A DNA stretch of 64,000 nucleotides from Rhizobium leguminosarum bv. trifolii WSM1325 (GTDB lineage: Bacteria; Pseudomonadota; Alphaproteobacteria; Rhizobiales; Rhizobiaceae), in assembly GCA_000023185.1 (NCBI GenBank), contig CP001622.1, positions 2,418,001 through 2,482,000 on the forward strand, written 5' to 3'. The translations under genes were made by a program, and so were the position numbers. The stretch's first letter is position 1. Each line of letters begins with the position of its first letter. Below the pieces are notes generated by a model. It ran no database searches and had not been told where the DNA came from. It saw only the letters and a program-made list of their open reading frames with translations. Below, in pieces: positions 10,157 through 22,576 of this stretch.

Positions 10157-10727
10157 CGATCTGCCAATAAAAATTCCGGATGACGCGGCAGGGAAACGGG
10201 AAGGAAGCCGATCGAAGATCTGACGCGCGGAGGTGCGCGGACTTGGAAAGCTGCGCACTGGCTGAATACGCCCGTTGCATCCGGCCGGAAAGGCTAAATC
10301 TCGCACTACGCAGGAATATTCCCGATGCAGCCGGATAGCTGGCCACTATCAATCCCAAGAAAGGATTCAAGAAAAAGGCCCCGCCGAAGCGAGGCCAAGC
10401 TTGATCCGCTCCGGGGAAAAACAGGAGCGGCGCGCAGTCCATACCGTGTGATCCATGTCGCAGCGAGGCCAGATGTCGCTGCATCGGTACGCTCGCCAAA
10501 GAATTTTTCGCGATCCGCCGGAAAAGATCGGCCCCCAAAACTATCCGCCCAGGTGGCGCGACACCTGTCGCATCGCAGCAACGATTGGCGCTTGCAATGT
10601 TTATAAAAATAGATATCACTAAACATATTGCTAAACATGATGATTGGGGAGTTCATGTGAGCATTCTCTGAAGTGGGTGAACATGCGACGCCGGCGGGGA
10701 GCCGGCCCTTAGTTCTGGGAGGAACTT
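10157..10727. other. 571-base intergenic region between DHA2 exporter and ABC/dha operon
   Basis: No convincing gene is seen; short frames here have no family resemblance or good ribosome sites. The part near 10360-10385 contains short GC-rich inverted repeats, and 10690-10712 holds a small hairpin (GCCGGC...GCCGGC) just before the ribosome site GGGAGGAAC of the binding-protein gene. The AT-rich stretch from about 10590 to 10650 is the likely promoter-operator of the operon and is listed separately. Confidence 0.6.
10592..10638 (+). promoter_or_regulatory. Probable promoter and operator of the ABC/dha operon
   Basis: A sigma-70-like pair, TTGCAA (10592-10597) and TATCAC (10614-10619), is spaced by 16 bases. 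It is followed at once by a direct repeat of CTAAACAT at 10619-10626 and 10631-10638, 12 bases apart, in the most AT-rich part of the gap. A repressor bound to the repeat would cover the transcription start. The assignment is by eye; no regulator gene of a known sugar family is adjacent. Confidence 0.4.
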
Positions 10728-12053
10728 ATGCAGAAAACATCGAAAGCCCTTTTCGGGCTGGCCACGGCATTTGTCATGTCGTCGGCATTGCCCAATCTCG
10801 CCAAAGCCGATGAACTGACCCTGTGCTGGGCCGCATGGGACCCCGCCAATGCGCTGGTCGAGCTCTCGAAGGATTTCACCGCCAAGACCGGCACGCAGAT
10901 GAAGTTCGAATTCGTTCCCTGGACGAGTTATGCCGATCGCTTCCTCAACGAGCTGAATTCGCACGGCAAGCTCTGCGACCTGATCATCGGCGACAGCCAG
11001 TGGATCGGCGGCTCGGCAGAGAACGGCCATTACGTCAAGCTCAACGACTTCTTCGACAAGGAAGGCATCAAGATGGATGACTTCGTGCCGGCGACGGTCG
11101 TCGGCTACTCGGAATGGCCGAAGAACACCCCGAACTACTGGGCGCTGCCCGCCATGGGCGACGTCGTCGGCTGGACCTACCGCAAGGACTGGTTCGAGAA
11201 GCCGGAACTGCAGAAGGAATTCAAGGAGAAATACGGCCACGATCTCGCAGCGCCGAAGACCTACGACGAACTGAAGCAGATCGCCGAGTTCTTCCAGAAG
11301 CGTGAGATCGACGGCAAGACCGTCTACGGCGCCTCGATCTATACCGAGCGCGGCTCCGAAGGCATCACCATGGGCGTCACCAACGTGCTCTACGACTGGG
11401 GCTTCCAGTACGAGAACCCGAAGAAGCCCTATGACATGGAAGGCTTCGTCAACTCGGCCGACGCGGTCAAGGGCCTCGAATTCTACAAGTCGCTCTATGA
11501 TTGCTGCACCCCGCCCGGCAGCTCCAACGTCTACATGGTCGAATCCGCCGACGCCTTCAAATCCGGCCAGGTCGCCATGCAGATGAACTTCGCCTTCACT
11601 TGGCCCGGCCTTTACAAGGACGAGAAGGTCGGCGGCGACAGGATCGGCTTCTTCCCCAATCCGGCTGAAAAGGCGCATTTCGCCCAGCTCGGCGGCCAGG
11701 GCATCTCGGTGGTCTCCTATTCCGACAAACGCGATGCCGCCCTGCAATACATCAAGTGGTTCGCACAGCCCGATGTACAGGCCAAATGGTGGGAACTCGG
11801 CGGTTTTTCCTGCCTGAACTCCGTCGTCAATGCGCCAGGCTTTGCCAAGAGCCAGCCCTATGCCCAGGCCTTCCTGGACTCGATGGCGATCGTCAAGGAT
11901 TTCTGGGCCGAGCCGAGCTACGCCTCGCTGCTGCAGGCCATGCAGAAGCGCGTCCATAATTACGTGGTCGCCGGCAACGGCACTGCCAAGGAAGCGCTCG
12001 ACGGTCTGGTGAAAGACTGGAGCGACGTCTTCAAGGACGACGGCAAGATCTGA
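10728..12053 (+). CDS. ABC transporter substrate-binding protein, carbohydrate type
   Basis: A 441-residue extracellular solute-binding protein (family 1, maltose-binding fold). The signal peptide ends near residue 27 (NLAKA then DELTLCWAAW), so the mature protein is periplasmic. It binds the substrate and delivers it to the two permeases encoded downstream. The ribosome site GGGAGGAAC precedes the ATG. The cargo cannot be read from the sequence. The operon ends in triose-kinase genes and has the gene content of rhizobial polyol importers such as the glycerol system GlpSTPQV, so a polyol, dihydroxyacetone or a tetrulose is likely. A GC-rich hairpin follows the stop codon, as is common when the binding protein must be made in excess. 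Confidence 0.88.
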   Translation: MQKTSKALFGLATAFVMSSALPNLAKADELTLCWAAWDPANALVELSKDFTAKTGTQMKFEFVPWTSYADRFLNELNSHGKLCDLIIGDSQWIGGSAENGHYVKLNDFFDKEGIKMDDFVPATVVGYSEWPKNTPNYWALPAMGDVVGWTYRKDWFEKPELQKEFKEKYGHDLAAPKTYDELKQIAEFFQKREIDGKTVYGASIYTERGSEGITMGVTNVLYDWGFQYENPKKPYDMEGFVNSADAVKGLEFYKSLYDCCTPPGSSNVYMVESADAFKSGQVAMQMNFAFTWPGLYKDEKVGGDRIGFFPNPAEKAHFAQLGGQGISVVSYSDKRDAALQYIKWFAQPDVQAKWWELGGFSCLNSVVNAPGFAKSQPYAQAFLDSMAIVKDFWAEPSYASLLQAMQKRVHNYVVAGNGTAKEALDGLVKDWSDVFKDDGKI

Positions 12054-12091
12054 CGCGTGTCATCCCTGATGCGTGCCATCCTCGACAGGAT

Positions 12092-12124
12092 GGCGGCCCG
12101 GATCGGCAGACGAGCCGGGCCGCC
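12092..12124 (+). promoter_or_regulatory. Intercistronic hairpin after the binding-protein gene
   Basis: A perfect 10-bp stem (GGCGGCCCGG at 12092-12101 with CCGGGCCGCC at 12115-12124) encloses a 13-base loop. It has no T tract. It sits 39 bases after the stop of the binding-protein gene and 52 bases before the permease start, where such stems usually protect the upstream mRNA or reduce read-through, giving more binding protein than permease. Its presence also argues against permease starts upstream of 12177. Confidence 0.6.
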
Positions 12125-12176
12125 AGATCTCTCATATCCTAATAGACCCCGTACCCCAAAAATACCAGGTGAAGAC

Positions 12177-13145
12177 TTGACCATTTCCCATTCCTCCATC
12201 GTCGAGAAGGCAGCCGATGCGACTGCGAGGGCAACGCCCTCCTCGGTCGCCCGGCGCGTCCGCGGCCTCTCCGACAGGGCGATCGCCTGGCTGTTTATTG
12301 CGCCTGCCATCACCCTGCTCTTGGCGATCAATATCTTCCCACTGCTTTGGGCGGTCTATCTCTCCTTTACCAATTACCGCGCCAACCGGCCGAATGCGCC
12401 GGTCCTGGGCGTCGGCCTTGGAAATTACCAGCGCGTTCTGAACGACCCCGATATCTGGCAAGCGATGCAGACTACCGCGCATTTCGTCTTCTGGACGATC
12501 GTATTGCAGACGGTGATCGGCTTCACGCTCGCCTACCTGATCGACCGCAAGTTTCGCGGCCATGCCTTCTGGACGACGATCATCCTGATCCCGATGATGC
12601 TGTCGCCCGCCGTCGTCGGCAATTTCTGGCGCTTCCTCTACGAGCCGCAGATCGGCCTCTTCGCCTATGCCGTGTCGATGGTGTCTGGCATCCCGACGTC
12701 GGATATCCAGATGCTCGGCAATGTCTCGCTGGCGCCCTGGGCGATTATCATCGTCGATACCTGGATGTGGACGCCCTATGTGATGCTGATCTGCCTAGCC
12801 GGGCTGCGCTCGATCCCCGACTATATCTATGAGGCGGCCGAGGTCGACCGCGCCTCGCCATGGCGCCAGTTCTGGTCGATCACCGTGCCGATGGCCCTGC
12901 CCTTCATCATGCTCGCCGTACTCTTCCGCGGCATCGAGAATTTCAAGATGTTCGACATGGTGACGCTGCTCACCGGCGGCGGGCCGGGCTCGGTCACTGA
13001 GGTCGCCTCGATCACGCTGAAACGCGCCGCCTTCGAAAGCTGGGCGACCGGCCGGGCCTCGGCTTTCGCCATCATCCTCTTCGTCGCGGTGTTCGGCCTC
13101 GCTAACATCTACGTCAAGGCATTGAACAAGGTGAAGCAACGATGA
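12177..13145 (+). CDS. ABC transporter permease 1, carbohydrate type
   Basis: A 322-residue inner-membrane permease of the MalF/UgpA class with six main hydrophobic segments. The ATPase-contact (EAA) loop is YEAAEVDRASPWRQFWSITVP near residue 240. It forms the channel with permease 2. The TTG start at 12177 follows GGTGAAG and fits the family's length; the longer frame from 12057 would translate through the intercistronic hairpin. The end overlaps the start of permease 2 by four bases (ATGA). Confidence 0.9.
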   Translation: MTISHSSIVEKAADATARATPSSVARRVRGLSDRAIAWLFIAPAITLLLAINIFPLLWAVYLSFTNYRANRPNAPVLGVGLGNYQRVLNDPDIWQAMQTTAHFVFWTIVLQTVIGFTLAYLIDRKFRGHAFWTTIILIPMMLSPAVVGNFWRFLYEPQIGLFAYAVSMVSGIPTSDIQMLGNVSLAPWAIIIVDTWMWTPYVMLICLAGLRSIPDYIYEAAEVDRASPWRQFWSITVPMALPFIMLAVLFRGIENFKMFDMVTLLTGGGPGSVTEVASITLKRAAFESWATGRASAFAIILFVAVFGLANIYVKALNKVKQR

Positions 13146-14095
13146 GCGCCGCCAACTCAGCCCATTCGGTTGTCGTACCGAGCCTGTCCAGCAAGCGCAT
13201 CGCCGGCACCATCGTCGTCCTCTACGCGCTGATCACCCTCATCCCGCTCGTCTGGATCTTCCTGACCAGCATCAAGTCGCCGCCGGATTCGATCAGCTAT
13301 CCCCCGAAGATCGTCTTTTCGCCATCGCTCGAAGGTTATTGCAATCTGTTCACCACGCGCACGCGGCAGACACCTGATTATATCGCCTCGCTGCCGGCAC
13401 CGGTCGGCACCTGCGATGAGGTGACGCGCAAGCGCAACATGGTGATAGCAGGCCCGTCAAACTTCCTGCCGCGCTTCATCAATTCGCTGGTGATCGCCTT
13501 CGGCTCCACCTTCCTCGCGGTCTTCCTCGGCACGCTCGCCGCCTATGGCTTTTCCCGCTTCAAGATCCCGCTCGCCGACGACCTGATGTTCTTCATCCTG
13601 TCGACGCGCATGATGCCGCCGATCGCCGTCGCCATCCCGATCTACCTGATGTATCGCGAGCTCGGCCTTTCGGACACGGCGCTCGGCATGATCCTGCTCT
13701 ACACCGCCGTCAACGTCTCGCTCGCCGTCTGGCTGCTCAAGGGTTTCATCGACGAAATCCCGCGCGAATATGAGGAAGCGGCGATGATCGACGGCTATAC
13801 CCGCCTGCAGGCTTTCCGCAAGGTCGTGCTGCCGCAGGCGACCACAGGAATTGCCGCCACCGCAATTTTCTGCCTGATCTTCGCCTGGAACGAATATGCC
13901 TTCGCCGCCCTTCTAACCTCGGGCGAGGCGCAGACCGCGCCGCCCTTCATCCCGACGATCATCGGCGAAGGCGGTCAGGACTGGCCGGCGGTTGCCGCCG
14001 GCACGACGATCTTCCTGATTCCGATCCTGGTCTTCACCATTCTCCTGCGCAAACAGCTGCTGCGCGGCATCACCTTCGGAGCCGTCCGCAAATGA
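13142..14095 (+). CDS. ABC transporter permease 2, carbohydrate type
   Basis: A 317-residue permease of the MalG/UgpE class. The EAA loop is EYEEAAMIDGYTRLQAFRKV near residue 215. A periplasmic insertion of about 60 residues after helix 1 carries two cysteines (GYCNLF and GTCDE), which could pair and is longer than in typical MalG proteins. The start overlaps the permease 1 stop, and the stop overlaps the start of the small membrane protein, so all three are translationally coupled. Confidence 0.9.
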   Translation: MSAANSAHSVVVPSLSSKRIAGTIVVLYALITLIPLVWIFLTSIKSPPDSISYPPKIVFSPSLEGYCNLFTTRTRQTPDYIASLPAPVGTCDEVTRKRNMVIAGPSNFLPRFINSLVIAFGSTFLAVFLGTLAAYGFSRFKIPLADDLMFFILSTRMMPPIAVAIPIYLMYRELGLSDTALGMILLYTAVNVSLAVWLLKGFIDEIPREYEEAAMIDGYTRLQAFRKVVLPQATTGIAATAIFCLIFAWNEYAFAALLTSGEAQTAPPFIPTIIGEGGQDWPAVAAGTTIFLIPILVFTILLRKQLLRGITFGAVRK

Positions 14096-14304
14096 GCCAC
14101 CTGATCGAAACACGCACCCCTGCCCGTCCGAAACGGTCGTTCTTCCTGCGCCGCGGCCCGATGGAGACCATCGCCACCGTGTTGATCGGGCTCGGCTTCC
14201 TGATGCTGTTCCAGCCCTTCCTGCTGGTGCTCTACACCTATTCGCTGGTCACCCTGCTTGCAGGCACCGTCATGTTCATCATCGTCTCGAAATTCCCGGA
14301 GTGA
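14092..14304 (+). CDS. Small two-helix membrane protein of the ABC operon
   Basis: A 70-residue protein with a basic N-terminus and two hydrophobic stretches (about residues 23-43 and 45-65). It starts inside the permease 2 stop codon and ends four bases before the first ATPase gene. Comparable small membrane proteins occur in rhizobial polyol ABC operons next to the permease genes, but a function is not established. Its placement between permease and ATPase suggests an accessory subunit of the transporter. It is unlikely to be spurious because coupling and codon use match its neighbours. Confidence 0.72.
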   Translation: MSHLIETRTPARPKRSFFLRRGPMETIATVLIGLGFLMLFQPFLLVLYTYSLVTLLAGTVMFIIVSKFPE

Positions 14305-14307
14305 ACC

Positions 14308-15405
14308 ATGGCGGATATCCGGATCGAAAATCTCCGCAAGGAATTCGGCAGCTTCGTCGCCGTCGAGGATTCGAGCTTCACCGTCCATGACGGCGAGTTC
14401 CTGGCACTGCTCGGTCCATCAGGCTGCGGCAAGACGACGACGCTTCGCATGATTGCCGGCCTCGAGCTGCCGTCGAGCGGCAAGATCTATCTCGACGGCG
14501 AGGATGTCACCTTCAACCGCGCCAGCGCCCGCGACATCGCCTTCGTCTTCCAACTCTTCGCGCTCTACCCGCATATGAACGTGCGTAAGAATATCGGCTT
14601 CCCGCTGCTGTCGCAGGGCATGCCCAAAGCCGAAATCCGTCAACGCGTCGAAGAGACCGCCCGCCTGCTGCAGATCGACCATATTCTCAACCGCTCGGTC
14701 TCGGGCCTTGCCGGCGGCGACCGGCAGCGCGTGGCGCTCGGCCGCGCCATCGTCCGGCGCCCGAAATGCTTCCTGATGGACGAGCCGCTCGGCACGCTCG
14801 ATGCCGAGTTCCGCGAGATCATGGTCCACGAGCTGCGAGAACTGCACAACCGCATCCATGCCACCACCGTCTACGTCACCCACGACCAGCACGAGGCGAT
14901 GGCGATGGCCGACAAGATCGCCGTCATGAACCATGGCGTCATCGAGCAGTTCGGCACGCCGCAGGAGATCTATGCCAAGCCGGCGACCATGTATGTCGCC
15001 GATTTCATCGGCTCGCCGCCGATGAACTTCATGCGCTTCACCTCGGGCCTGAAAAGCGGCGACAAGTCGATCCTGCTCGACGGCGTCGATGTCGCCGTTC
15101 CTGAGATCCACCAAGACATGGCCGAAAGCCAACTGGCGCTCGGCGTCCGGCCGGAGCATATCCGCTTCAGCGACGCCTCGGCGCTGCGCGGTGCCGTCTA
15201 TGGCAGCGAATATCTCGGCACTAACCAGGTCGTGGCTGTGGAAACCCAGGGCGGCCTGATCAAGGCCCGCGTTCCCGCCAATCGCAGCTTCCAGATCGGC
15301 GAAAGGGTCGGCCTCGAATTCAACCCGGCGAAACTCGCGCTCTTCGACTGCACATCGGGCCGTGCCGTACCGTCCTCGCTCTATCAGGAGACCCGGCATG
15401 GCTAA
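14308..15405 (+). CDS. ABC transporter ATPase 1 with altered signature motif
   Basis: A 365-residue MalK/UgpC-class ATPase: nucleotide-binding domain (residues about 1-235) plus a C-terminal TOBE-like domain. Walker A is GPSGCGKTTT, the Q loop FVFQLFALYPHM, Walker B CFLMDEPLGTLD and the H loop YVTHDQHEA. The ABC signature reads LAGGDRQR instead of LSGGQ, losing the serine that contacts the gamma phosphate, and the D loop is LGTLDAE. This hints that one of the two composite ATP sites in the heterodimer with ATPase 2 is weak. A two-ATPase arrangement is known for GlpS/GlpT. The ATG follows the small membrane protein by three bases. Confidence 0.9.
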   Translation: MADIRIENLRKEFGSFVAVEDSSFTVHDGEFLALLGPSGCGKTTTLRMIAGLELPSSGKIYLDGEDVTFNRASARDIAFVFQLFALYPHMNVRKNIGFPLLSQGMPKAEIRQRVEETARLLQIDHILNRSVSGLAGGDRQRVALGRAIVRRPKCFLMDEPLGTLDAEFREIMVHELRELHNRIHATTVYVTHDQHEAMAMADKIAVMNHGVIEQFGTPQEIYAKPATMYVADFIGSPPMNFMRFTSGLKSGDKSILLDGVDVAVPEIHQDMAESQLALGVRPEHIRFSDASALRGAVYGSEYLGTNQVVAVETQGGLIKARVPANRSFQIGERVGLEFNPAKLALFDCTSGRAVPSSLYQETRHG

Positions 15406-16426
15406 TGTCGTCCTCAGGAACCTCGCCAAGCGCTTCGGCGACACCCAGGCTTTGGCCGACCTCGATCTTTCGATCCGCGACGGCGAGTTCGTCGTGCTGC
15501 TCGGTCCCACAGGCGCCGGCAAGACCACGACGCTGCGGCTGATCGCCGGCCTCGAAAAGCCCGACAGCGGTGGCATCGAGATCGGCGGCCGCAATGTCGC
15601 CGCCGAAGCGCCCGCCGAACGCGACGTCGCCTTCGTCTTCCAGCAATATTCGCTCTATCCGCATATGACGGTTTACGAGAACCTCGCCTTCCCGCTGAAG
15701 GCGCCGGTCCGCAAACTCAGCACTGCGGAGATCGACCGGCGCGTGCGCGAAGTCGCGCGCATGGTCCGGATCGACCACAAGCTGGAGAACCGCTCTACCA
15801 GGCTTTCCGGCGGCGAGATGCAGCGTGTCGCGATCGGCCGGGCGCTGGTGCGCCGGCCGGCGATCTACCTGATGGACGAGCCGCTGTCCTCGCTCGACGC
15901 CAAGCTGCGCGCCGAACTGCGCCTGGAGCTCAAGCGTATCCAGAAGGAACTGGGCTCGACTTTACTCTATGTCACCCACGACCAGGTGGAAGCCATGACC
16001 ATGGCCGACCGCATCGGCATCGTCGCCGAGGGACGGCTGATGCAAGTGGGAACGCCGCGCGAAATCTACGGCAATCCCGCCAACCTGCATGTCGCCGCCC
16101 GCCTCGGCCAGCCGCATATCAACCTTCTGCCGGCGGACCTGCTCCCGGGCGGTCAGCCGCCGGCCGGCACGAAAACCGTCGGCGCCCGCACCGAACATCT
16201 TGATATCGTCGTCGGCAAAGATGCCAACGCCGAGATCGACTGGATCGAACATCTGGGCGACCAGAACCATCTGCACATCAGGGTCCGCGATCCCAGGCAG
16301 GCCGCGCGGGAACACAAGCTCGTCACACTTGCGGATCCATATCTGGCGATTGCGCCGGGCGACCGGATCAGCCTGACGCTACGTGATCCGCTTTATTTCG
16401 ATGTGGCTGGACAGCGCCTGTCCTGA
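15398..16426 (+). CDS. ABC transporter ATPase 2, canonical
   Basis: A 342-residue MalK/UgpC-class ATPase. All motifs are standard: Walker A GPTGAGKTTT, Q loop FVFQQYSLYPHM, signature RLSGGEMQR, Walker B IYLMDEPLSSLDAK and H loop YVTHDQVEA. A C-terminal regulatory beta domain follows from about residue 235. The start is the ATG at 15398, behind CAGGAG and overlapping the ATPase 1 stop by eight bases; an earlier in-frame ATG at 15362 lacks a ribosome site. It is predicted to pair with ATPase 1. Confidence 0.92.
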   Translation: MANVVLRNLAKRFGDTQALADLDLSIRDGEFVVLLGPTGAGKTTTLRLIAGLEKPDSGGIEIGGRNVAAEAPAERDVAFVFQQYSLYPHMTVYENLAFPLKAPVRKLSTAEIDRRVREVARMVRIDHKLENRSTRLSGGEMQRVAIGRALVRRPAIYLMDEPLSSLDAKLRAELRLELKRIQKELGSTLLYVTHDQVEAMTMADRIGIVAEGRLMQVGTPREIYGNPANLHVAARLGQPHINLLPADLLPGGQPPAGTKTVGARTEHLDIVVGKDANAEIDWIEHLGDQNHLHIRVRDPRQAAREHKLVTLADPYLAIAPGDRISLTLRDPLYFDVAGQRLS

Positions 16427-16479
16427 CCGGCAAACAGACTTGATGATGGCATGAAAAACAAACAGACGGGTCTCAATCG

Positions 16480-18123
16480 ATGAAACACTTCTTCAACCGC
16501 AGGGAAAACATCGTCACCGAAGCCTTGGACGGTCTGCTTCTGACGAGCAGCAAGGGTCGTCTTGCCCGCCTCGACAGCTTTCCCGACATCAAGGTGATCC
16601 TGCGCGCGGACTGGGACAAGTCGAAGGTGGCGATCATATCCGGCGGCGGCGCCGGCCATGAGCCCTCCCATGCCGGCTTCGTCGGTAAGGGCATGCTGAC
16701 GGCTGCCGTATCCGGCGAGATTTTCGCCTCGCCGAGCGTCGATGCCGTGCTGACGGCGATCCGCGCCGTGACCGGCGAAAAGGGCGCCCTGCTGATCGTC
16801 AAGAACTACACCGGCGACCGGCTGAATTTCGGCCTCGCCGCCGAAAAGGCGCGCGCCGAGGGCTTCGACGTCGAGATGGTCATCGTCGCCGACGACATCG
16901 CCATCCCCGAGATCAACCAGCCCCGCGGTGTCGCCGGCACGCTCTTCGTCCACAAGATCGCTGGCTATCATGCCGAAAGGGGCGAGGACCTGAAGACGGT
17001 CGCAGCCCATGCCGCCGCGGCAGCCGGCGACATCGCCTCGCTCGGTATGTCGCTTTCCACCTGCAGCGTGCCGGGCCAGGCGCATGAGGACCGTCTCGGC
17101 GAGAACGAGGGCGAACTCGGCCTTGGCATCCATGGCGAGCCCGGCGTCGAACGCATCACTTTGCAGCCGGTCGCCGATATCGTCGCCACCATGGTGGCGC
17201 GCCTGTCGCCTGCGCTGCGCGAAGGGGCAAGCCACGCCCTCCTCATCAACAATCTCGGCGCCGTGCCGCCACTCGAAATGACCGTCATTGCCAATGCCGT
17301 GCTGTCCTCGCCGCTTGGCCGCCGCGTCCGGCTGATCATTGGCCCGGCGCCGATGATGACCGCGCTCAACATGAACGGCTTCTCGCTGTCGCTGATCCGG
17401 CTGGACGCCGTGCGTGAGGCCGCGCTAACGGCAGCGGTCGAACCGCATGCCTGGATGCCGGCCGTCGAACGCCACGAGATCCAGATCATCGCCGCACCGA
17501 GAACATCAGCCGGATTGAACGGCGCGAACGGCGCAGCTGGAGATGACGCCCACAACCGGCGCCTGATCACGGCACTCTGCGAACATCTGATCTCGCAGGA
17601 AAGCGAACTCAACCGGCTGGATGGCCGCGTCGGCGACGGTGATACCGGCTCGACGGTGGCGACGGGCGCCCGCAGCGTGCTGGCCCGCCTCGACACACTG
17701 CCGCTCGACCGGCCGGCCGCAACCCTTGCCTCGCTTGGCGATATCCTCGGCACCAGCATGGGCGGATCGAGTGGCGTGCTGCTATCGATCTTCTTCACCG
17801 CCGCAGCAAAGGCGATGGCTGACAAGGCCGATATATCAGCAGCCCTTCTTGCCGGGCTCGACAGGATGACGTTCTATGGCGGAGCCGGAGTCGGCGACCG
17901 GACGATGGTCGATGCGTTGTCGCCTGCCCTGCAGGCGCTCGCATCCGGCGATGTCGCCGCCGCGGCAAAGGCTGCGGCAGCGGGGGCGGAGTCGACGAAG
18001 GCGATGACGAAGGCGAAAGCCGGACGCGCCTCCTATGTCGGCGAAAGGGATCTGGCGGGCGTTGCCGATCCCGGCGCCGTCGCGGTTGCCGGCGCGTTCG
18101 GTGTGGCGGCAAGCCTCGCCTGA
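16480..18123 (+). CDS. Dihydroxyacetone kinase, ATP-type DhaK-DhaL fusion
   Basis: A 547-residue kinase, the usual size of single-chain ATP-dependent dihydroxyacetone kinases. The DhaK domain (about 1-330) keeps the substrate residues H60 in GGGAGHEPSHAGF, D113 in KNYTGDRLNF, and H218 in GIHGEPG, which binds the ketone covalently as a hemiaminal. The DhaL domain (about 355-547) has the Mg-ATP loop DGRVGDGDTGST and GGSSG. It phosphorylates dihydroxyacetone, or a related ketose such as erythrulose or glyceraldehyde, in the cytoplasm. It follows the ABC importer by 53 bases and precedes a complete PEP-type set, which is unusual. Confidence 0.93.
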   Translation: MKHFFNRRENIVTEALDGLLLTSSKGRLARLDSFPDIKVILRADWDKSKVAIISGGGAGHEPSHAGFVGKGMLTAAVSGEIFASPSVDAVLTAIRAVTGEKGALLIVKNYTGDRLNFGLAAEKARAEGFDVEMVIVADDIAIPEINQPRGVAGTLFVHKIAGYHAERGEDLKTVAAHAAAAAGDIASLGMSLSTCSVPGQAHEDRLGENEGELGLGIHGEPGVERITLQPVADIVATMVARLSPALREGASHALLINNLGAVPPLEMTVIANAVLSSPLGRRVRLIIGPAPMMTALNMNGFSLSLIRLDAVREAALTAAVEPHAWMPAVERHEIQIIAAPRTSAGLNGANGAAGDDAHNRRLITALCEHLISQESELNRLDGRVGDGDTGSTVATGARSVLARLDTLPLDRPAATLASLGDILGTSMGGSSGVLLSIFFTAAAKAMADKADISAALLAGLDRMTFYGGAGVGDRTMVDALSPALQALASGDVAAAAKAAAAGAESTKAMTKAKAGRASYVGERDLAGVADPGAVAVAGAFGVAASLA

Positions 18124-18169
18124 CCGATGTGACGTTTGAAAGCCCGCGGGAGGCGCGGCGACTAGGAGG

Positions 18170-18790
18170 ATGGCAGTGCAGGCGGAACCGGTGCTTGTGG
18201 CAGGATTGATCGAGGTGTGCCGCGCGACGATCGCGGCAAACAGCGATCACCTCTGCGCGCTCGATCGCGCCATCGGCGATGGTGATCACGGAACCAACAT
18301 GCGGCGCGGCTGTGAGGCAGTGAGCGCCGAAGGCGAAAGCCTGTCCAGCCTGCCCTTCCCCGACGCCATGGAAAAGATCGGCCTGACGCTGGTGATGAAT
18401 GTCGGCGGTGCCGCCGGGCCACTCTACGGCACGCTGCTGATGGAGATCGGCCGCGAGCTTCGCAAAAGCAACGAGAAAGCCGATTTTTCCCTCGTGCTGA
18501 AACAGGCAATCGACGCCGTCGCAAGGCGCGGGCGGGCGCATGCCGGCGACAAGACGCTGCTCGACGTGCTCTATCCCGTGCATGCCGCGCTGGAGAAGCG
18601 GTCTCCACTCGGTGACGTCGCCCGCAAGGCCGAACGTTCTGCCAGCCGCACGGCTGACATGAAGGCGATGCGCGGGCGCGCGGCCTATCTCGGCGACCGC
18701 TCGATCGGCCATGTCGATCCCGGCGCGTCGAGCTGCGCGCTGCTGACCACGGCGATCTGCCGCTATCTCGGGGAGCATCGTCCGCAATGA
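18170..18790 (+). CDS. dhaL: Dihydroxyacetone kinase subunit DhaL (PEP-type)
   Basis: A 206-residue ADP-binding subunit. The Mg-coordinating aspartates lie in LDRAIGDGDHGTNMRRG (about residues 35-51), which matches stand-alone DhaL of E. coli more closely than the L domain of the fused kinase upstream. In PTS-type kinases DhaL keeps a bound ADP that is rephosphorylated by DhaM, then passes the phosphate to the ketone on DhaK. GGAGG lies just before the ATG. It overlaps dhaM by four bases (ATGA). Its DhaK partner is probably the gene at 21584. Confidence 0.92.
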   Translation: MAVQAEPVLVAGLIEVCRATIAANSDHLCALDRAIGDGDHGTNMRRGCEAVSAEGESLSSLPFPDAMEKIGLTLVMNVGGAAGPLYGTLLMEIGRELRKSNEKADFSLVLKQAIDAVARRGRAHAGDKTLLDVLYPVHAALEKRSPLGDVARKAERSASRTADMKAMRGRAAYLGDRSIGHVDPGASSCALLTTAICRYLGEHRPQ

Positions 18791-19185
18791 ATGGAAAGAC
18801 CGCAAATGTGGGTATCGTGATCGTCTCCCACTCGCCGCTGGTGGCAAGGGGGATCGCCGATATGGTGCGACAGATGGTGGGCGACAGCGTGCCGCTCGCC
18901 TGGTCGGGCGGCAATGTCCATGGCGAACTCGGCACCGATGCCGGCGGTATCCTCAGGGCGATCGAGGCCGCTTGGTCCGATGCCGGCGTCGCCGTCTTCG
19001 TCGATCTCGGCGGTGCTGAAACGAACAGCGAGATGGCGATCGAAATGCTGGGCCTTCCCCGCGCAGCCCTCGTCTCCATCTGCAACGCGCCTTTGGTTGA
19101 AGGCGCCGTCATCGCCGCCGCCGAGGCGTCGGGGGGCGCTTCGCTGGCCAAGGTCGTCGCCACAGCCGAGGAACTGTCCCCCTGA
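18787..19185 (+). CDS. dhaM: Phosphotransferase subunit DhaM (EIIA-Man type)
   Basis: A 132-residue protein of the mannose-type EIIA fold. The phosphorylated histidine is H15 in VIVSHSPLVARG; a second family motif is DLGGAETNSEMA. It takes phosphate from HPr and recharges ADP on DhaL. In E. coli DhaM is a three-domain protein (EIIA, HPr and a truncated EI); here only the EIIA part is present and HPr and EI follow as separate genes. Both ends overlap neighbours (ATGA with dhaL, TGATG with the HPr gene). Confidence 0.92.
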   Translation: MNGKTANVGIVIVSHSPLVARGIADMVRQMVGDSVPLAWSGGNVHGELGTDAGGILRAIEAAWSDAGVAVFVDLGGAETNSEMAIEMLGLPRAALVSICNAPLVEGAVIAAAEASGGASLAKVVATAEELSP

Positions 19186-19529
19186 TGACAACAGGATTGC
19201 GTAGTGAAAAACAGGAGCCCGATCCATTGCATGTGAATTGCCAGACGGAGGTAGAAGTCAAGCACGGCGTCGGGCTGCATGCCCGCCCCTCCGTCACCTT
19301 CACGCGGCTTGCCAAGTCCTTCCCCTGTTCGATCGAGATCGCCGTCAACGGCAGCGATGTCTGGCTGAACGGCAAGAGCATCATCAAGATCATGGGCGCG
19401 CGAATCCGAAAAGGGTCGATCCTTAGAATACGGGCCGACGGCATTCTCGCCGAAGAGGCGATCCGCGCCCTGAAGGAACTCATCGAGCGCAACTTCGATG
19501 AGGAAAAGAAACATGGCCGAACCGCTTAG
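19185..19529 (+). CDS. HPr-family phosphocarrier dedicated to the dha operon
   Basis: A 114-residue frame holding an HPr domain of about 90 residues. The phosphorylated histidine is H32 in GVGLHARPSVTF; the position matching the regulatory Ser46 of HPr is S65 in LNGKSIIKIMG. It should carry phosphate from the Enzyme I encoded next to DhaM. The ATG at 19185 overlaps the dhaM stop; a later TTG or GTG near residues 15-17 would give a more standard HPr length, so the true N-terminus is uncertain. It overlaps the Enzyme I start by 17 bases. Confidence 0.9.
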   Translation: MTTGLRSEKQEPDPLHVNCQTEVEVKHGVGLHARPSVTFTRLAKSFPCSIEIAVNGSDVWLNGKSIIKIMGARIRKGSILRIRADGILAEEAIRALKELIERNFDEEKKHGRTA

Positions 19530-21117
19530 ACTGCAAGCCAAGAGCGCATCCCCGGGCATCGCATCCGGCCCGGCCTTTCTCGCGGAGGAGCCGAAGGCTC
19601 CTTCCGCTGCCGAGCAGCCGGACACCGCCCCTGCGTCCCGAGCCGTCGGGGGATACGGTGCGCTGGAGAAGGCGATCGACATCTCGATCAGCGAACTCGA
19701 GCACCTTGCCGATGGAGCCGACGCCGAAAGCCGGGATATCATCGATTTCCAGATCGAGGTGCTGCGCGATCCCTCGATCGCGGAAGCGACCGGCGCACGC
19801 CTGGAAGCCGACGAGAATGTCGTCTTTGCCTGGGTCGCCACCCTCGACGCCTATATCGGCGAACTCGAAGCGGCCGACGAGGAGCAGATGCGGGCACGCG
19901 CCGTCGATATTCTCGACATCAAGAACCGCGTGCTCGGCGCGCTCGCCGGCACCCCGATTGCCGATTTCCCGCCCGGCTCGGTCTTCGTCGGCAAGGACAT
20001 GGAGCCGAGCCGCTTTCTCGCCCATGACTGGTCGAAAGGCGGCGGCATCGCGCTGTTCGCAGGCAGCACCGCCGGCCATGTCGCCCTGCTCGCCCGGGCG
20101 AAATCGGTGCCGATGGTGATCGGCACAGGCCGCTTTTCAGCCGCAGACGGAGATCCTGTCAGCGTGGATGGCAACGCCGGTGCGGTCATCCTGCAGGCGG
20201 GCAGCATGCTGATCCCGCCGCTCGTGCCTGCACAAGAACCCGCCGGCGACACGCAAACCACCGGCGGCGAGTTGCGCACGGCGGACGGCGTGCCGATCCT
20301 GCTCTCGATCAACATCAACGATCCCGCCGAGATCGATGCGCTCGATCCGGCAACGGCAGGCGTCGGCCTGATGCGCTCGGAATTTTCGATAACCTCAGTG
20401 GCCGATGCCGCCAATGAGGAACAGCAGTTGGCGATCTATCGCCGCGTGCTGGAGCAGGCAGGCGACAGGCCGGTAACGATCCGCATGCTCGATATCGGCG
20501 GCGACAAGCCGCTCCCCGGCCTGGAAGATCTGCCGGCTCTTGCCTCGGGCCTACGCGGCATCCGACTGCTGCTTGCCCGGCCGGAAATCGCCCGCGTCCA
20601 AGCCCGCGCCCTGCTGCGCGCCGCCGTCTTCGGTAGGCTGTCCGTAATGCTGCCGATGGTGACCTTTCCCGACGAAATCGACAGGATGCGCGACATCTTC
20701 CGGGAGGAAGCCGAAAAGCTCGGCCGCCGCGCCCTGCACCACCGAATGCCGCCGATCGGCATGATGGTGGAGGTACCGGCTGCCGCTTTGATGCTCGACA
20801 CCTTCGGATCTGCGGCGTTCTTCTCGTTCGGAACCAACGATCTTACCCAGTATCTCGCCGCCTCCGCCCGCGACGATATCGATGCCGATACCGGCAAGGC
20901 AGCACCCGCCGTGCTCCGGCTGCTTGCCCAGGCGGTGAAGCTGACCGCCGGCAAGCCAGTCAGCATCTGCGGCGACATGGCCGGCAATCCGCACTATCTG
21001 CCCGGCCTGCTCGCCGCCGGTCTTAGGCATTTTTCCGTGGCGCCGGCCCGGCGTCCCGCGATAAGATCGGCGATCATCGGCCTCAACGCCGATGGCACAA
21101 GGGCAGCCGGAGAGTAG
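19513..21117 (+). CDS. PTS Enzyme I (PEP-protein phosphotransferase), dha-specific
   Basis: A 534-residue Enzyme I. The N-terminal part has the swivelling domain with the phosphorylated histidine in GSTAGHVALLAR (usual form GGxTSHxAI). The C-terminal PEP-binding barrel has GVGLMRSEF (usually LLRTEF), MVEVPAAALM, FGTNDLTQY and the catalytic cysteine in SICGDMAGNP. It draws phosphate from PEP and passes it to the HPr encoded just upstream. The ATG at 19513 follows GAGGAAAAG. Rhizobia usually carry a nitrogen-type Enzyme I (PtsP) with a GAF domain; none is present here, so this is a separate, pathway-dedicated copy. The two motif changes are worth noting. Confidence 0.92.
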   Translation: MAEPLRLQAKSASPGIASGPAFLAEEPKAPSAAEQPDTAPASRAVGGYGALEKAIDISISELEHLADGADAESRDIIDFQIEVLRDPSIAEATGARLEADENVVFAWVATLDAYIGELEAADEEQMRARAVDILDIKNRVLGALAGTPIADFPPGSVFVGKDMEPSRFLAHDWSKGGGIALFAGSTAGHVALLARAKSVPMVIGTGRFSAADGDPVSVDGNAGAVILQAGSMLIPPLVPAQEPAGDTQTTGGELRTADGVPILLSININDPAEIDALDPATAGVGLMRSEFSITSVADAANEEQQLAIYRRVLEQAGDRPVTIRMLDIGGDKPLPGLEDLPALASGLRGIRLLLARPEIARVQARALLRAAVFGRLSVMLPMVTFPDEIDRMRDIFREEAEKLGRRALHHRMPPIGMMVEVPAAALMLDTFGSAAFFSFGTNDLTQYLAASARDDIDADTGKAAPAVLRLLAQAVKLTAGKPVSICGDMAGNPHYLPGLLAAGLRHFSVAPARRPAIRSAIIGLNADGTRAAGE

Positions 21118-21118
21118 A

Positions 21119-21532
21119 ATGGCGCGCGAAGACACCGAAGACGCCATTATCGCCTACAAGTCCATTCTGGCGCAGATCATCGACAACAGGCCATCCGGCA
21201 CGCGCCAGCGCCTGGCGACGGCGCTTGGAAAACATCGCAGCTTCGTCACCCAAATCACCAGCCCGACCTATGCGACGCCGCTGCCGGCGCGCCATCTCGC
21301 CACGATCGTCCGCGTCTGCCATTTCAGCGCCGCCGAACAGGAGCGCTTTCTCGAAGCCTATCAGGCCGCCCATCCCGGCAAGCTGCCGGACCTCGGCCAT
21401 TCCGAGAAATTGCGGCACCTTTCGCTGATGGTGCCCGACTTCGGCGATGACAGGAAAAACCGCCTATTGGAAGAGGCGATCTCCGATCTGGTGCAGAAGA
21501 TCGTCGCGATTTCAGGGGCGAGTGAGCAGTGA
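21119..21532 (+). CDS. Small helix-turn-helix-like protein of the dha operon, function unknown
   Basis: A 137-residue protein with a possible Cro/CI-type helix-turn-helix in residues about 20-60 (TRQRLATALGKHRSFVTQIT) and a helical C-terminus. It starts one base after the Enzyme I stop and lies 51 bases before dhaK, so it is inside the operon. It could be a transcription regulator responding to pathway flux, or an adaptor of the kinase. In E. coli the regulator DhaR is controlled by direct contact with DhaK and DhaL, which makes a regulator here plausible, but this protein does not resemble DhaR. Confidence 0.6.
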   Translation: MAREDTEDAIIAYKSILAQIIDNRPSGTRQRLATALGKHRSFVTQITSPTYATPLPARHLATIVRVCHFSAAEQERFLEAYQAAHPGKLPDLGHSEKLRHLSLMVPDFGDDRKNRLLEEAISDLVQKIVAISGASEQ

Positions 21533-21583
21533 GTAGTGAGCGGGTTGACGTGACGTAATGCTTTTGGCCTTGGGAGGGGCTTG

Positions 21584-22576
21584 ATGAAGAAATTCATGAA
21601 CACTGCGGAAACCATGGTCGCCGAAAGCGTCGAAGGCTTCGTGCGCGCCCATGAGGCCTTCGTAGTGTTCGGCCCCGAGCGCAGGTTCATCCGCCGTCGC
21701 CATCTCACGCCTGAAAAGGTGGCGCTTATATCAGGCGGCGGCGCCGGTCATGAGCCGATGCATATCGGCTTCGTCGGCCACGGCATGTTGGATGCCGCCT
21801 GCGTCGGCCATATCTTCACCTCTCCCACACCGAGCCAGATCATCGCCGCCATCGAAGAGGCCGATACCGGCGCCGGCTGCCTGCTCGTGGTCAAGAATTA
21901 CGACGGCGATCTGATGAATTTCGAAATGGCGATCGAGATGGCCGGCGACCGCCACAACATCGACATGGTCGTCGTCAGCGACGATATCGAGACATCAAGG
22001 TCCGGCGAAGGCAATGGCCGGCGCGGCGTTGCCGGAACGCTGATCGTCGAAAAGCTCCTGGGTGCTGCGGCCGAACGCGGCATGTCGCTTGCCGAATTGA
22101 AGCAGCTTGGCGAAGGATTGAACACCCGCATCCGCTCGATGGGTGTCGCGCTGAACGGCGTGACGGTGCCGCAGACCGAGCGCACGACATTTTCGCTTGG
22201 GCCGGGCGACATGGAAATGGGCGTCGGCATCCATGGCGAGCCCGGCCATGCCAGGCAGCCCTTCGCCGCCTCCGACGCCATCATCGGCCATCTCTGCGAA
22301 ACCATCGCCGGCGATATCGCGGTGGCGCCGGGTACCCGCGCACTGCTCTTCGTCAACGGCCTCGGCGGCACGCCGCCGGCTGAACTCTACCTCGCCTATA
22401 ATGGCGCCCGCCGCTTCATCGAGGAAAGAGGCATCCCGATCGAGCGCTCACTTGTGGGAACCTACGTCACCTCGCTCGACATGCAGGGACTGTCGGTCAC
22501 CCTTGCCTTGCTGACCGACGAGGAGATCGCGCTCTGGGACGCGCCGGTTGCGACGGCGGCTTTGCGTTGGCCGTGA
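21584..22576 (+). CDS. dhaK: Dihydroxyacetone kinase subunit DhaK (PEP-type)
   Basis: A 330-residue DhaK. All substrate residues are kept: H56 in GGGAGHEPMH, D109 in KNYDGDLMNFE and H217 in GVGIHGEPG, which binds the ketone covalently. It resembles E. coli DhaK along its length, including the C-terminal LWDAPV. It should work with DhaL at 18170 and DhaM at 18787 to make dihydroxyacetone phosphate from PEP. The ATG at 21584 follows GGGAGGGG; an overlapping TTG at 21581 is less likely. It is probably the last gene of the operon; the next gene is convergent. Confidence 0.92.
   Translation: MKKFMNTAETMVAESVEGFVRAHEAFVVFGPERRFIRRRHLTPEKVALISGGGAGHEPMHIGFVGHGMLDAACVGHIFTSPTPSQIIAAIEEADTGAGCLLVVKNYDGDLMNFEMAIEMAGDRHNIDMVVVSDDIETSRSGEGNGRRGVAGTLIVEKLLGAAAERGMSLAELKQLGEGLNTRIRSMGVALNGVTVPQTERTTFSLGPGDMEMGVGIHGEPGHARQPFAASDAIIGHLCETIAGDIAVAPGTRALLFVNGLGGTPPAELYLAYNGARRFIEERGIPIERSLVGTYVTSLDMQGLSVTLALLTDEEIALWDAPVATAALRWP

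Follow-up and report, generated by a model that had tools for sequence, protein, structure and literature searches.

The operon at positions 10728 to 22576 of the window (the whole 64,000-nucleotide stretch that was analysed, C1:2418001-2482000 of a 7.4 Mb genome in 6 contigs) probably serves the uptake of a ketotriose, most likely dihydroxyacetone, with two kinases acting on the imported substrate and a local lambda-repressor-like protein acting as repressor. Its 13 co-directional genes on the plus strand combine an ABC importer with an ATP-type DhaK-DhaL fusion and with a PEP relay that is complete and split into separate genes (Table 1). What is new here is that the same importer is found in different bacteria next to the ATP fusion, next to the PEP module or next to the two together; the other new piece is a predicted repressor-operator pair and its apparent alternation with LacI.

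Table 1. Features of the operon and of its upstream region (positions in the window)
Feature	Position	Strand	Remarks
Conserved GCAGCAACGA box and CTTG of the probable -35	10575..10594	+	box 10575-10584; CTTG 10591-10594
Predicted operator	10598..10637	+	TGTTTATAAA-N8-TCACTAAACA-N2-TTGCTAAACA; half-sites 10598-10607, 10616-10625, 10628-10637
Solute-binding protein, MalE-type	10728..12053	+	441 aa; SBP_bac_8
Permease 1	12057..13145	+	BPD_transp_1; open frame from 12057; probable start TTG 12177
Permease 2	13142..14095	+	BPD_transp_1
Small membrane protein	14092..14304	+	70 aa; no Pfam match
ABC ATPase 1	14308..15405	+	ABC_tran
ABC ATPase 2	15398..16426	+	ABC_tran; open frame from 15362; probable start 15398
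DhaK-DhaL fusion	16480..18123	+	547 aa; Dak1 and Dak2; ATP-type motif GDGDTG
DhaL	18170..18790	+	Dak2; PTS-type motif GDGDHG
DhaM	18787..19185	+	IIA domain only; EIIA-man; His in VSHS
HPr	19185..19529	+	PTS-HPr; His in GLHARP
Enzyme I	19498..21117	+	full length; probable start 19513
Lambda-repressor-like-fold protein, predicted repressor	21119..21532	+	137 aa; HTH core 21203-21256
DhaK	21584..22576	+	Dak1; open frame from TTG 21581

The gene list, strand and coordinates proposed in an earlier sequence-only reading were borne out, all genes lying on the plus strand and matching the expected families. Short gaps and overlaps had also been described; the genes indeed overlap or lie a few bases apart, except for gaps of 123 nt between the binding protein gene and permease 1 (taking TTG 12177 as the start of the latter, in line with its 322-aa ortholog), 53 nt upstream of the fusion, 46 nt upstream of dhaL and about 50 nt upstream of dhaK. 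Judging from its relatives of 136 aa, the small lambda-repressor-like protein most likely starts at 21119. The identical 13-gene order is annotated in Rhizobium sp. T1470, Sinorhizobium sp. B11 and Phyllobacterium zundukense and is therefore not due to chance. On either side the operon is flanked by genes of the opposite strand: the upstream neighbour, a frame of 531 aa, is by our reading a possible MFS transporter, and the downstream neighbours are esterase-like and acetyl xylan esterase-like genes.

Comparison with the E. coli K-12 proteins revealed all the residues that we take to be catalytic, namely the His and Asp of DhaK (in GIHGEPG and KNYxGD), three Asp in DhaL, one His each in DhaM and HPr, and the EI sites with His, Arg and Cys. 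DhaL, which carries the PTS-type GD(G/A)DHG, and the DhaM IIA domain with its active His score above the NCBIfam cut-offs (199.4 vs. 138.3 and 130.5 vs. 98.25, respectively), while DhaK is slightly under (405.4 vs. 406.25) and EI is below (281.5 vs. 341.7), yet with its active sites in place. The fusion also falls below its cut-off (544.6 vs. 574.95 for dak_ATP); we class it as ATP-type by its motif and its closest structure, the Citrobacter ATP kinase 1un9, with which it aligns over residues 3-543 (E 1.4e-153). To take GDGDTG as a sign of ATP use and GD(A/G)DHG as a sign of PTS use is our own reading of these motifs. We followed the motifs through the 23 loci that carry both kinases, the window being one of them, and through 17 loci that have the PEP module without the fusion. 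VSHS of DhaM, GLHARP of HPr and GDGDHG of DhaL are each kept in 40/40 of these loci and GIHGEPG of DhaK in 39/39, the contig of L120 stopping before dhaK; the listed EI motifs end in the active His in 18/23 loci with both kinases and in 17/17 PEP-only loci. The GDGDTG of the fusion is kept in all 23 loci with both kinases.

The relay had been called private, and no other sugar-PTS chain was found in the window genome when its matches to PEP-utilizers_C, HPr and EIIA-man were surveyed. There are three PEP-utilizers_C matches (the operon EI and frames of 757 and 909 aa), two HPr matches (one in the operon, the other at a distance of some 80 bases from the second EIIA-man match) and two EIIA-man matches, the operon DhaM included. 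By size and place the remaining genes look like a nitrogen PTS (EINtr, 757 aa) and a pyruvate phosphate dikinase (909 aa), so the operon holds the sole DhaM and the sole sugar-type EI-HPr pair found. Three more DhaK-type genes are located elsewhere in this genome. The HPr gene close to an EIIA-man gene and the further EI-like frame of 757 aa could mean that EINtr and NPr charge DhaM, or that the operon EI-HPr feeds the nitrogen PTS. We consider such an exchange quite unlikely, since the module brings its own EI and HPr: all 30 EI loci compared on this point (window included) have the full set of dhaL, dhaM, HPr, EI, small protein and dhaK.

The chemistry of the PEP branch corresponds to that of the E. 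coli DhaKLM system, with DhaK, DhaL-ADP, DhaM and identical catalytic motifs. In E. coli, however, DhaM unites IIA, HPr and EI-like parts in a single protein, while the relay in the window is split; moreover, the E. coli dha genes have no adjoining importer, and their dhaR is a 1,920-base gene. The fusion resembles the ATP-dependent dihydroxyacetone kinase of Citrobacter freundii (1un9) in its DhaK-DhaL architecture and GDGDTG motif; to our knowledge, the Citrobacter kinase has no adjoining PEP kinase relay. Both chemistries are found in one organism in Klebsiella pneumoniae, with dihydroxyacetone kinases I (ATP) and II (PEP), of which the ATP kinase is reported to contribute little; unlike in the window, they belong to a dha regulon with glycerol enzymes, and an ABC importer is not mentioned in the relevant part of that paper (PMC4777399).

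Closer counterparts come from rhizobia. Comas et al. (2008) described the EI and HPr genes of M. loti in an operon with dihydroxyacetone kinase genes, and an identical HPr/EI-dihydroxyacetone kinase cluster in B. japonicum (PMC2405797). In B. diazoefficiens, blr3566-blr3577 comprise, in the same order as in the window, genes for a binding protein, two permeases, a small protein, two ATPases, DhaL, IIA, HPr, EI, a 'hypothetical protein' and DhaK, with the fusion absent; they are co-regulated, with fold changes from 4.2 to 24.3 in a TetR mutant and lower values in bacteroids (PMC5017801, 2016). According to a table in PMC8632152, blr3566 has orthologs under two Mesorhizobium columns, and the S. 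meliloti column lists none. As far as the relevant sections of these sources describe them, the M. loti, B. japonicum and B. diazoefficiens clusters differ from the window in being without the ATP-type fusion, and no regulator or operator is named there. By gene position, blr3576 is a candidate counterpart of the small regulator. No operator name or function of the small protein was found in the open-access literature that was searched, including the pertinent parts of PMC2405797, PMC4777399, PMC5017801, PMC10628242, PMC8632152 and PMC3333776. The earlier view of both chemistries behind one importer, with a PEP relay that is complete and split into separate genes, is thus upheld; the relay is not novel, because the HPr/EI-dihydroxyacetone kinase half of the cluster was already published in 2008. 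Operons with both kinases recur as a variant of this known kind of cluster.

We analyzed the distribution of these modules in 247 genomes of the family, of which 43 have an EI match at 1e-60 and 72 a fusion match at 1e-100. In total 80 stretches were fetched, covering 40 of the 43 EI places (all but those of the window, G089 and G126) and another 40 places with a fusion; the set leaves out the fusion places of G026, G052, G089, G128 and G213 and of 8 genomes in which EI had no match. Together with 6 plasmid loci they make 86 loci, a sample chosen by kinase matches, in which the importer is accompanied by both kinases in 22 cases (one of them, L120, cut by the contig end), by the PEP module in 17 and by the fusion in 33. 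The remainder are importer-less PEP modules (3), a contig-split locus (1), importer-less fusions (7) and loci with none of these (3). Because this first set had been selected on kinase matches, we redid the survey from the binding protein. Among 397 genomes of the order, 93 have a match to it at 1e-120, and 79 of these lie outside the window's family; 40 of the 79 were fetched, picked for genus spread, and one of these ends at a contig edge. The 39 judged importers are accompanied by the fusion only (12), the PEP module only (22) or both (5), and none of the 39 is without either kinase. Two of the PEP-only loci (L334, L335) have an extra weak DhaK-like match 5' of dhaL, and in L343 and L344 the fusion is located 3' of dhaK, not 5' of dhaL.

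The kinases are thus interchangeable behind the importer, while the importer itself looks alike in all classes. Among 112 binding proteins of the three kinase classes, conservation reaches 97% or more at 183 of the 441 positions, and the ATP-only proteins are set apart from the others by a single position. The 70-aa membrane protein likewise stays with the importer in relatives (39-94% identity). Either kinase alone behind what looks like the same importer seems to be a case of natural complementation, and it is the best support for the earlier suggestion that the cell can use either energy source.

In the importer tree (73 rows, 1745 columns) the ATP-only class forms one side of a branch (99*), while the 'both' and 'PEP only' classes interleave; the 'both' state takes three changes, for which gain and loss are not separable in this tree. 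It should be mentioned that all trees were quick ones without an outgroup, with L120, L343 and L344 as long branches. In the fusion tree, one branch (99*) splits the 28 rows adjacent to a PEP module from the 30 ATP-only rows, and the importer-less fusions of L123 and L124 fall with the former. Independent recruitment of the fusion from ATP-only operons was considered and rejected, as the PEP-adjacent fusions, those of L343 and L344 included, lie on one side of the branch. Given this grouping, they look like a single lineage that was gained or lost repeatedly.

The 137-aa protein, previously noted as a small HTH-like protein, corresponds to a lambda-repressor-like helical fold. It has no match over the cut-off to any Pfam HTH family, and searches with PHROGs and low-threshold Pfam gave chance-level matches at best. 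For its family, which is without a Pfam model, one search gave 968 significant matches and another 1,615, with the best 120 listed in each case. The gene goes with the PEP module and is present in all 27 PEP-module operons outside the window's family. A LacI homolog (E 1e-20) was found in the fetched stretch of 31 of the 33 ATP-only loci and, at the same threshold, in none of the 39 fetched stretches with importer and PEP module. Thus, the kinase module and the regulator change together, while the importer stays; neither this exchange nor the operator described next had been noticed in the earlier reading.

An operator-like site tracks the regulator gene. The word ACTAAACA, on either strand within 300 bases 5' of the binding protein, is found in 38/40 PEP-module vs. 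0/33 ATP-only operons, and the ATP-only promoters share different words, GTACCTCA and GTGCGCAC. With 35 spacings allowed, the layout TGTTTAGTAA-N8-TTACTAAACA-N2-TTACTAAACA scores 24-29 of 30 in 38 of the 40 PEP-module operons; in the same scan none of the ATP-only operons reaches 22, and 400 single-base shuffles, scanned with 9 spacings only, gave a maximum of 19. The exceptions are L119 with a score of 18, where the small protein is 38% identical, and L120 with a score of 17, where the contig stops before the small-protein gene. Outside the window's family, scores of at least 20 were obtained in 20/27 PEP-module vs. 0/12 ATP-only operons, the site being missing at this threshold in the other seven. 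Six importer-less fusions score 13-16, and a Microvirga locus (L010) with a transposase gene directly upstream scores 15.

As bare DNA, the operator pattern was found at 113 places in genome_contigs (84,980 species), of which 80 were listed, most of them from Mesorhizobium and hence non-independent. At 108 of the 113 a binding-protein gene of this family starts at most 400 bases downstream (82-177 bases in the 76 measured places), at one (L177) the pattern abuts dhaL of a module without an importer, and four leave no room to judge. All 109 judged places therefore lie just 5' of this operon type, and none away from it. The pattern was derived from relatives and is too strict for the variant in the window itself; with up to three mismatches to two half-sites, the window genome contains one site, and a reversed control pattern gives none at the same limit. 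In L119, L314 and L324, PSF replaces RSF in the protein and AGTTTAG replaces TGTTTAG in the DNA. Covariation of the operator with the recognition helix was rejected, since L330 has RSF with AGTTTAG, against the pattern.

Directly 5' of the first half-site there is a conserved CTTG: among 110 aligned operator contexts its TTG never varies, and its C is kept in 96%. A generic promoter scan gave nothing above chance (3 found vs. 2.2 expected), and the -35 was placed by this conservation. The usual -35/-10 spacing then puts the -10 on the second half-site, so that a bound protein should block RNA polymerase; the operator thus probably overlies the promoter. The upstream GCAGCAACGA box may be the site of another factor. 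It could be argued that the TGTTTAGTAA sites are themselves bound by a different factor, or that the 137-aa protein is an activator: its DNA binding is suggested by association, the protein is present in 27/27 outside-family PEP-module operons of which 7 are without the site at threshold, and the B. diazoefficiens cluster responds to mutation of an unrelated TetR gene (PMC5017801). We regard this as quite improbable, given that the site occurs in 0/33 and 0/12 ATP-only operons, that the importer-less PEP modules of L116 and L118 keep it 5' of dhaL (scores 24 and 25), and that the half-sites overlie the presumed promoter core, which fits repression.

As to the substrate, sequence searches among solved structures gave distant relatives of the binding protein and nothing closer, and its AF2 model is poor (mean pLDDT 59.7). 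The two kinases might differ in substrate, the PEP kinase acting on dihydroxyacetone and the fusion on erythrulose, glyceraldehyde or the like, with a broad importer. Dak-family kinases acting on erythrulose exist, and the PEP-adjacent fusions, besides branching apart (99*), differ from the ATP-only ones at 14 class-diagnostic positions; nevertheless, each kinase also occurs by itself behind the importer, with binding proteins that show no difference between the classes, and the window operon is without an isomerase or epimerase for a tetrulose phosphate, which makes this division rather doubtful. It is about equally unlikely that a larger compound, such as a glycoside or ketohexose, is imported and that dihydroxyacetone or another small ketose is a product of its breakdown by enzymes encoded elsewhere. 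Sugars are frequent ligands of MalE-type binding proteins, and some loci carry suggestive genes: in L131 and L136, LacI, 2-hydroxy-3-keto-glucal hydratase-like and Gfo/Idh genes run into the importer (the L131 hydratase-like gene matches 8ro4 at E 7e-189), L106 and L109 have a hydratase-like and Gfo/Idh pair 3' of dhaK, and in L100 a D-tagatose/psicose-3-epimerase-like gene separates ATPase 2 from dhaL. However, few of the 86 loci were found to have such glycoside or ketose genes, the window operon has none, and the hydratase copy of the window genome is 1.3 Mb away from it.

We therefore favour the reading as a ketotriose operon, in which the importer would bring the substrate, most likely dihydroxyacetone, into the cell. 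The DhaK-DhaL fusion would convert it to DHAP with ATP, and DhaK would do so with DhaL-ADP, recharged from PEP through EI, HPr and DhaM; the two kinases might also work simultaneously. The 137-aa protein would bind the three TGTTTAGTAA-type half-sites that overlie the promoter, and the operon would stay repressed until a signal, which may come from the substrate or from the state of DhaK, DhaL or HPr, lifts the block. A further, speculative possibility, which we hold to be unlikely, is that the PEP module is enzyme and sensor at once: the repressor would read the occupancy or phosphorylation of DhaK, DhaL or HPr, the operon would need both substrate and PEP, and the ATP fusion would cover PEP shortage. 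If true, this would be a new PTS-coupled control exerted by a lambda-repressor-like protein and not by DhaR or a PRD/BglG-type factor.

That one importer is accompanied by an ATP kinase in some bacteria, by a PEP kinase in others and by the two together in still others offers a natural experiment on the choice of energy donor for a triose, and the predicted operator makes a 'hypothetical protein' a testable local repressor.

Outside the operon, the genome of WSM1325 has three additional genes of the DhaK type, together with three DhaL-like frames whose motif reads GDGDHG or GDADHG; the only DhaM that we found in this genome is that of the operon itself. Two comparison loci with PEP-module operons, L334 and L335, each show an additional, weak DhaK-like match (38% and 34%, respectively) near 6.2 kb, between the importer and dhaL.

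In a few relatives (comparison loci L131, L136, L106 and L109) two genes adjoin the importer operon, one resembling a 2-hydroxy-3-keto-glucal hydratase and the other of the Gfo/Idh type; the same pair was identified by reading beside the importer operon of L130. The window genome has a hydratase copy with an identity level of 84%, located far from the operon. A D-tagatose/psicose 3-epimerase-like gene lies between the second ATPase gene and dhaL in L100, and an open stretch related to it occupies the same place in L101 and L105.

Positions of the described features (positions in L100 and L131 count within the locus)
Feature	Sequence	Position
Inverted repeat, window copy	window	10575-10584
Enzyme I	window	19498-21117
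Small protein	window	21119-21532
Hydratase copy	window genome	C1:3753530
Extra DhaK-type genes/DhaL-like frames (L019)	window genome	C1:1391000-1406000
Extra DhaK-type genes/DhaL-like frames (L020)	window genome	C2:114000-130000
Hydratase-like and Gfo/Idh genes	L131	12627-15952
Epimerase-like gene	L100	8399-9244

The residues ahead of the active His of Enzyme I vary in the window protein and its relatives (TAGH, TASH, AASH, VSSH, SASH), whereas E. coli Enzyme I has TSH at this position. In the small protein, the predicted repressor of the operon, Cys67-His68 and His85-Pro86 are invariant and could form a metal or redox site.

Upstream of the probable -35 element, most of the 110 aligned operator contexts share a conserved inverted repeat, TGCTGC-N3-GCAGCA, with ACGA after it; in the window copy only the right half is clear. 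This repeat is possibly the site of a second regulator. The promoters of the ATP-only operons (33 loci), which lack the PEP module, have in common the words GTACCTCA, CGCACCTC and GTGCGCAC, which are candidates for the operator of the LacI regulator.
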